A stretch of 64,000 nucleotides of DNA from positions 58,086,107 through 58,150,106 of the forward strand of contig NC_134829.1 in NCBI RefSeq assembly GCF_004210375.1, in the 5' to 3' direction. A program made the translations under genes and the position numbers. Under the pieces are notes generated by a model. It was not told the origin of the DNA. It was given only the letters and a program-made list of their open reading frames with translations, and made no database searches. The DNA comes from Tachypleus tridentatus. Taxonomy: Eukaryota > Arthropoda > Merostomata > Xiphosura > Limulidae. This document shows positions 31,541 through 31,915 of the stretch, one piece after another. Position 1 is the first letter of the stretch; each line of letters begins with the position of its first letter.

Positions 31541-31915
31541 TTTGTTTACAGAGAAGAAATGGTGTGTAAATTGTAGTAATATTATTGGTTTATTTGTTTA
31601 CAGAAGGAAGAGAGTGTGTCAAATGTAGTAATATTACTGGTGTATTTGTTAACAGAAGGAAGAGAGCGTGTAAACTGTAGTAATATTATTGGCTTATTTG
31701 TTTACAGAAAGAAGAGAGTGTGTAAACTGTAGTAATATTACTGGTGTATTTATTGACAGAAAGAAGAGAGTGTGTAAACTGTAGTAATATTATTGGTGTA
31801 TTTCTTAACAGAAGGAAGAGAGTGTGCCAACTGTAGTAATACAATTGTTTTATTTGTTAACAGAAGGAAGAGAGTGTGCCAACTGTAGTAATACAATTGT
31901 TTTATTTGTTTACAG
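31541..31915 (+). repeat. 52-bp tandem duplication of the exon 3 acceptor with exon start
   Basis: Eight acceptors tttgttWacag (or close variants) end at 31551, 31603, 31655, 31707, 31759, 31811, 31863 and 31915, every step exactly 52 bases. Each is followed by a copy of the first ~28 exon bases (aaggaagagagtgtgtcaac-like). Only the last runs on into a complete GATA finger. All seven upstream copies read tgtagt where the true exon reads tgtggt. Confidence 0.96.

Follow-up and report, generated by a model that had tools for sequence, protein, structure and literature searches.

A horseshoe crab gene that we take to be of the GATA1/2/3 type carries eight tandem copies of the acceptor of its third exon, and this array is very probably a minisatellite that formed over the junction of intron 2 and exon 3, corresponds to a 'mirage' in the amphioxus sense, is mostly tolerated by the gene, and predates the split of the gene from a paralog. 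The structure is real and of a known kind, is new for a horseshoe crab as far as we searched, and bears an unexpected sign of age. We analyzed it in a stretch of 64,000 nucleotides of the Tachypleus tridentatus genome (positions 58,086,107 to 58,150,106 of contig NC_134829.1; hereafter the window), and coordinates given without a contig name are those of the window.

The gene lies on the + strand. The coding part of exon 1 (19375..19576) and exon 2 (25478..26074) were placed by the reading frame and by comparison with a second copy of the region, exon 3, which encodes the N-finger and is followed by gtgagt (31916..32061), by finger matches and the reading frame, and exon 4, which encodes the C-finger (43138..43263), by a finger match and the reading frame. 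Exons 1-4 joined together comprise 357 codons with zero stops. The product has two CX2CX17CX2C fingers; the peptide of exons 3 and 4 matched Pfam PF00320 in 2 stretches (2.6e-32), and the best solved-structure match of the fingers was GATA-3 4hc7 (4.1e-55). Four short motifs searched on the + strand between 43000 and the window end did not reveal the last GATA exon, and the window contains a 500-base gap (N) at 46955-47454. The acceptor of exon 4 (43132-43137, +) reads AAGCAG, by eye a tandem acceptor of the NAGNAG type.

The tandem acceptor array, delimited by TRF and unit comparison, occupies 31521..31938 (+), in which TRF recognized 8.0 copies of 52 bp with 88% matches, zero indels and a score of 566. 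The CAG acceptors end at 31551, 31603, 31655, 31707, 31759, 31811, 31863 and 31915, at a period of exactly 52 bp, and both these positions and TRF bear out a sequence-only reading of the window, which had described eight acceptors at this spacing. Each unit comprises ~27 nt of the intron end (GTAAT, a T-rich tract and CAG) and ~25 nt of the start of exon 3. The same reading had about 28 exon bases copied; the exon start is indeed copied, but over 23 nt up to the first mismatch with the real exon, after which the real exon 3 continues with GGTTCC and the decoys with AGTAAT. The pyrimidine-rich tract claimed for every copy is present as the T-rich tract but is modest (9-12 of 17 positions). The contrast between TGTAGT in the decoys and TGTGGT in the real exon 3 had also been pointed out, and it holds in 7/7 decoys; it arises because exon bases pass directly into intron bases at the repeat junction.

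The units are not identical. Units 2-7 agree pairwise at 42-48 of 52 positions, and unit 1 is an outlier (31-37/52), being the most diverged of the eight. On the 5' side of the array, the segment at 31475..31526 (+), which the sequence-only reading had not mentioned, looks like a decayed ninth unit, here called unit 0, which would have lost the CAG (TTAGAC) and is spaced by 53 nt from its neighbor. Unit 0 matches the unit consensus at 32/52 positions, and beyond the array, the best-matching segments of the window reached 30 (+) and 29 (-). A local-alignment control was weaker, as 9/300 pieces drawn at random from the window scored no lower, 5 of them coming from an AT-rich array at 48.3-49.4 kb, so that the adjacency to the array and the register (53 nt) are what make the assignment persuasive.

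One alternative regards the decoys as poison acceptors, the regulated use of which would yield a frame-shifted mRNA that is degraded or translated into a fingerless protein and would thereby set the level of the GATA factor. We consider it improbable, and the units themselves furnish evidence on both sides. The CAG is intact in 8/8 units and hence unbroken in all 7 decoys, a point for poison acceptors. Under the mismatch rate of the array of 11% (40/364 cells), zero change in 21 CAG cells would occur by chance with P ~0.09; the intact CAG could hint at selection, with too few cells to decide. On the other hand, acceptor position -5 is the most variable column in decoys 2-7 (changed in 4/6), a pattern not expected under strong selection for working decoys.

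The strength of the acceptors was assessed with a matrix built from 12 sites of the GATA exons in this genome, which is small and rough. The acceptor in use is probably that at 31914..31915 (+), judging from the reading frame, as with donor 26074 no other acceptor gives a frame open into the finger, and it scored 8.0 bits. Decoy 7 (31862..31863, +), 52 nt 5' of the true site, was the top-scoring decoy with 8.6 bits, followed by decoy 6 (31810..31811, +; 5.4 bits) and decoy 2 (31602..31603, +; 4.9 bits), and the rest did not exceed 2.7 bits, namely decoy 1 (31550..31551, +; 2.7 bits), decoy 3 (31654..31655, +; 1.5 bits), decoy 4 (31706..31707, +; 2.7 bits) and decoy 5 (31758..31759, +; -1.0 bits). 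The reference sites scored 4.6-13.0 bits in a leave-one-out procedure, and the 95th percentile of 371 intron AGs was 4.2 bits. Decoys 7, 6 and 2 thus exceed this percentile, in favor of poison acceptors, but decoys 1 and 3-5 fall below every reference site, against them.

The last acceptor has 12 pyrimidines in 17 positions and the decoys have 9-11, and the exon to donor 32061 would be 146 nt long from the last acceptor and 198-510 nt long from the decoys. In every unit, an AG-free stretch of 25-26 nt lies 5' of the CAG and GTAAT is found at 25-26 nt, so each unit could act as a 3' splice site on its own. GTAAT deviates at the first base from the usual branch consensus yUnAy. Besides GTAAT, 25 nt before the last acceptor base, TTTAT at 12 nt is a candidate branch point. 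As the score of decoy 7 is no lower than that of the true site, differences in site strength cannot by themselves explain the tolerance of this decoy, and a slight leakage through it into a poison product is plausible. Regulation by the array is possible, albeit unproven. RNA structure hiding the decoys was considered and rejected, as the folding of the array does not stand out from that of shuffled versions (z 0.49), and this ordinary fold also argues against poison acceptors.

The donor of the same intron is repeated as well, a feature that the sequence-only reading had likewise left out. A donor array of 41 bp x 3 was detected by TRF at 26068..26189 (+), in which the end of exon 2 (AGTAAAG) and the donor (GTAGGA) occur in three copies, the true donor being at 26074 and the copies at 26115 and 26156, with GT kept in 3/3. 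The donor array and the acceptor array occupy opposite ends of one intron of 5.8 kb, and a DNA search of the genome recovered the donor array only at the two copies of the region on the contig of the window (C5; see below).

Frames recomputed from donor 26074 speak for poison acceptors in that all 7 decoys lead to stops. Decoys 1-6 run into a TAG in the following unit (31626-31628 to 31886-31888) and decoy 7 into a TAA at 31992-31994, precisely as the sequence-only reading had translated them by hand, and its claim that only the last acceptor continues into a finger is likewise borne out for this donor. Nevertheless, the unit of 52 nt (1 mod 3) moves the frame by one in the next unit, in which TAG is then met, and this accounts for all six TAG stops. 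The repeat junction together with the unit length thus explains the stops, and selection for nonsense need not be assumed. Among the 24 pairs of donors and acceptors, 2 are open through exon 3, namely the normal pair 26074+31915 and 26115+31863, the latter giving an in-frame product with a 31-residue insert. Thus, the claim that the use of a decoy removes both fingers stands for donor 26074 but not for 26115+31863, which stays open.

Tandem arrays are abundant near this gene, which also speaks against poison acceptors. Merging of 38 TRF rows gave 25 arrays, which make up 16.8% of the window, and 2 of the 7 placeable splice sites lie inside arrays (binomial P 0.33), so that no special targeting of splice sites is needed. 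An array falling on a splice site would be unsurprising in this setting; the remarkable point is that the gene apparently copes with it. Arrays are seen across the window, for instance at 1869-3096, 27858-29591, 48327-49416 and 58028-58931. Elsewhere, array coverage was 1.7% and 4.0% in 30-kb blocks at two other GATA genes and 41% in a 20-kb block.

The sequence-only reading had left the choice between poison acceptors and a neutral repeat, and of these the neutral repeat fits better in light of the junction-derived stops, the variability at position -5, the abundant arrays, the copied donor and the splicing reported in amphioxus.

The region has a second copy on the same contig (C5:47.07 Mb), inverted, with a divergence of 0.72% (219/30387 aligned bases). 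The acceptor array is identical in this copy (464/464, with the same 8 units), as is the donor array (141/141), and the genes of the two copies differ by four substitutions over the four exons compared. Copy number differs between the two copies for the 31-, 66-, 32- and 80-bp arrays, the acceptor and donor arrays being among the unchanged ones. Heterozygosity in the mangrove horseshoe crab was given as 0.8% (PMC7210998). The second copy may be the other haplotype misplaced, which is possible because its divergence is close to this value, or a recent duplication. The alignment of C5:47.046-47.086 Mb with window positions 12210-46953 stops at the 500-N gap of the window. Contigs C6 (121676998) and C14 (35470857) carry a near-identical GATA exon pair, possibly a haplotype duplication too.

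The possibility that the acceptor copies were made by the assembler has to be weighed here, since repeats are difficult to assemble and the region is a near-duplicate of another on the same contig. We regard such an artefact as very improbable: the units differ among themselves, a copy diverged by 0.72% holds an identical array, and a diverged pseudogene holds a similar array at the same place.

The pseudogene emerged from a survey of the genome (2.17 Gb, 205 contigs). The search for the N-finger gave 20 matches and nine N-finger loci (L009-L017), which were reduced to seven by merging two near-identical pairs. The automated parse counted L024, which overlaps L016, as an N-finger locus. Two of the seven distinct N-finger exons bear an acceptor array, namely that of the window gene and that of a pseudogene on contig C13 (C13:203910601; 203.9 Mb). 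No acceptor array was found in the five other N-finger exons, which include L015 and L016 (GATA4/5/6-like as judged by eye), the acceptors of which were taken unconfirmed. Likewise, 0/10 parsed loci of the C-finger type (8 distinct; 11 in total, with L019 left out) had an array at the exon edge, as approximately placed, and the closest array lay 149 nt away.

The pseudogene has lost finger cysteines and contains a TAG. Upstream of it lies a weak relic of exon 1 (E 6e-7), and the 60 kb examined yielded no convincing exon 2. Its array comprises 6 units at spacings of 52, 52, 52, 53 and 53, and the breakpoints in exon and intron are those of the window array. CAG is retained in 2/5 decoys, and the other 3 have TTTAG followed by AG or AA. 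In a tree of the exon (~150 aligned sites), the pseudogene and the window exon were sisters with a support of 0.955. The unit consensuses of the two arrays align best in the unrotated register. Scored against the unit profile of the window, the pseudogene units reached at most 19.3 bits, a score also attained by arrays on contigs C4 and C6 that we take as unrelated, and the case for a common origin consequently rests on the place before the same exon and the shared breakpoints.

The simplest and most likely reading is that there was one array, older than the duplication that separated the window gene from its dead paralog, and both the common origin and the age of the array are thus inferred from the comparison of these loci. 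Alternatively, the array of the pseudogene may have been born independently at the same place, in which case the array need not be old. We hold this to be unlikely. Paralogous acceptors would give units of like content in any case, the event could recur at a breakpoint hotspot, and the likeness of the units alone (best 19.3 bits) proves nothing; against these points, the spacing of 52-53 and the breakpoints in exon and intron match the window array, and the consensuses align best unrotated. An array older than the gene duplication would in turn be a point for poison acceptors.

The three C4 and C6 arrays (L004 at C4:27.52 Mb, L006 and L007 at C6:7.06/7.09 Mb), the scores of which resembled that of the pseudogene in the genome search, were tried as relatives of the GATA array and rejected. 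They consist of 53 bp x 13.8 on C4 and 51 bp x 19-29 on C6, with units like the GATA acceptor unit and without a nearby exon. Their best units scored 22.6, 19.6 and 19.3 bits, and as such scores would by calculation arise many times by chance in 2.17 Gb, these arrays are treated as unrelated. No relic of exon 3 was recognized downstream of them (9 observed, with null maxima of 13-14 and 38 in the L003 control). As a counterpoint, shuffles (300 of the pseudogene unit, maximum 13) would count the C4 and C6 units as similar (24 and 20), and the best unit of the pseudogene itself scored no more than 19.3 bits. Taken as chance resemblances here, they seem odd all the same.

The age of the split was approached with corrected transversion distances, which were 0.36 between the units of the two loci, 0.08 and 0.16 within the loci, 0.21 between their last units and 0.10 for exon 3. 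For the last whole-genome duplication, a 4DTv peak of 0.39 +/- 0.14 has been given, and the living horseshoe crab species are said to share an ancestor about 135 million years old (PMC7210998). These values support a deep split of the window gene and the pseudogene, which may reach up to the depth of that duplication; the measures disagree and suggest no date. No tight synteny with a Fezf-like neighbor was seen in the 60 kb examined around the pseudogene, and Fezf-like copies elsewhere on C5 and C13 lend weak support to an origin by whole-genome duplication. At fourfold sites, the Fezf-like gene of the window and two C13 copies are near saturation.

Thus, we propose that in a GATA1/2/3-type gene the junction of intron 2 and exon 3 gave rise to a minisatellite, each unit of which would be a small 3' splice-site cassette of GTAAT as a possible branch site, a T-rich tract, CAG and 23 nt of exon. 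Turnover would regenerate the units from the selected last unit, and through this regeneration the decoys would look like good acceptors without selection of their own. Units at the far end that escape turnover would decay, as unit 0 without AG and unit 1 as the most diverged appear to have done. The spliceosome would mostly tolerate the array, the likely reason being that the last acceptor combines the most pyrimidines with the shortest exon to donor 32061, presumably by exon definition. A separate minisatellite would have hit the donor of the same intron, and the acceptor array would predate the split from the now-dead paralog. As a counterpoint, survival since before a deep duplication would be long for a minisatellite without effect. 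It is conceivable, albeit quite unlikely, that the decoy array has been kept in this developmental transcription factor gene since before a duplication of roughly the depth of the last genome duplication in horseshoe crabs and renewed from the working acceptor, with decoy 7 and the copied donors leaking a regulated share into unproductive isoforms or isoforms with the 31-residue insert.

NAGNAG and other tandem acceptors are sites at which several AGs compete for one exon, and the GATA array shares this competition. In contrast to NAGNAG, in which the AGs lie a few bases apart, whole cassettes are set 52 bp apart here through DNA repeat turnover. The closest known system is that of the mirages of amphioxus, in which exon-intron boundaries at the start or the end of exons are repeated in tandem in the manner of a minisatellite, as described for Adh3, the globins BflGb6/BflGb9, PGBD5 and TnC (PMC3087553, PMC3902484). 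The same accounts report normal splicing together with length instability, and note that the copied AG/GT could act as cryptic sites (PMC3087553, PMC3902484). As far as these accounts describe them, mirages share with the GATA arrays units that span the intron end and exon start (or the exon end and donor), retention of the splice dinucleotides in many units, an effect on both types of boundary and homogenization of units within a cluster with the outer units left out. The GATA array has the structural features of a mirage, i.e., a boundary-spanning unit with splice dinucleotides in the units. It differs in residing in a horseshoe crab instead of a cephalochordate, in having 8 units of 52 bp (9 if the decayed one is counted), in the hit on both ends of one intron, and in being common to a dead paralog and hence apparently older than a duplication. 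CeRep25B minisatellites of Caenorhabditis elegans lie near alternative exons, and their intronic motifs were linked to splicing (PMC4039745). They resemble the GATA array as a minisatellite beside splice decisions, and differ from it in that their summary description does not include copies of splice sites (PMC4039745).

Among the papers listed in a survey of the open-licence literature, none described a splice-boundary minisatellite in horseshoe crabs, and the present array would extend such minisatellites beyond lancelets as far as the literature was searched. It offers a natural eight-way contest of similar 3' splice sites closing a 5.8-kb intron that opens with a donor series, and it allows one to test in vivo how acceptors are chosen under competing AGs and exon definition. 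The copy in the pseudogene suggests that such arrays can outlast gene duplication, which bears on models of intron gain through tandem duplication of splice sites.

Several other features were observed in and around the window. A C2H2 zinc-finger gene, its fingers recognized by Pfam and the gene presumably of the Fezf type, lies at 56292-57779 (+), ~25 kb 3' of exon 3. The Fezf-like fingers have an identical copy at C5:47271925 and copies of 91-93% on C13. GATA and Fezf are 25 kb apart in the same orientation in the window, and ~200 kb apart in opposite orientation at C5:47.07 Mb. SINE-like, tRNA-derived elements were seen by eye at about 25130-25200 (-) and 26820-27080 (+), and ARAGORN detected no tRNA in the window. 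The open frame at 17316-18008 (+), without a Pfam match, is by eye what we take to be a fragment of a Penelope-type GIY-YIG endonuclease. Finally, exons of the coagulogen family, which is known from horseshoe crabs and so points to such a host, gave 19 matches above the cut-off in this genome and 0 in the 14 control genomes.
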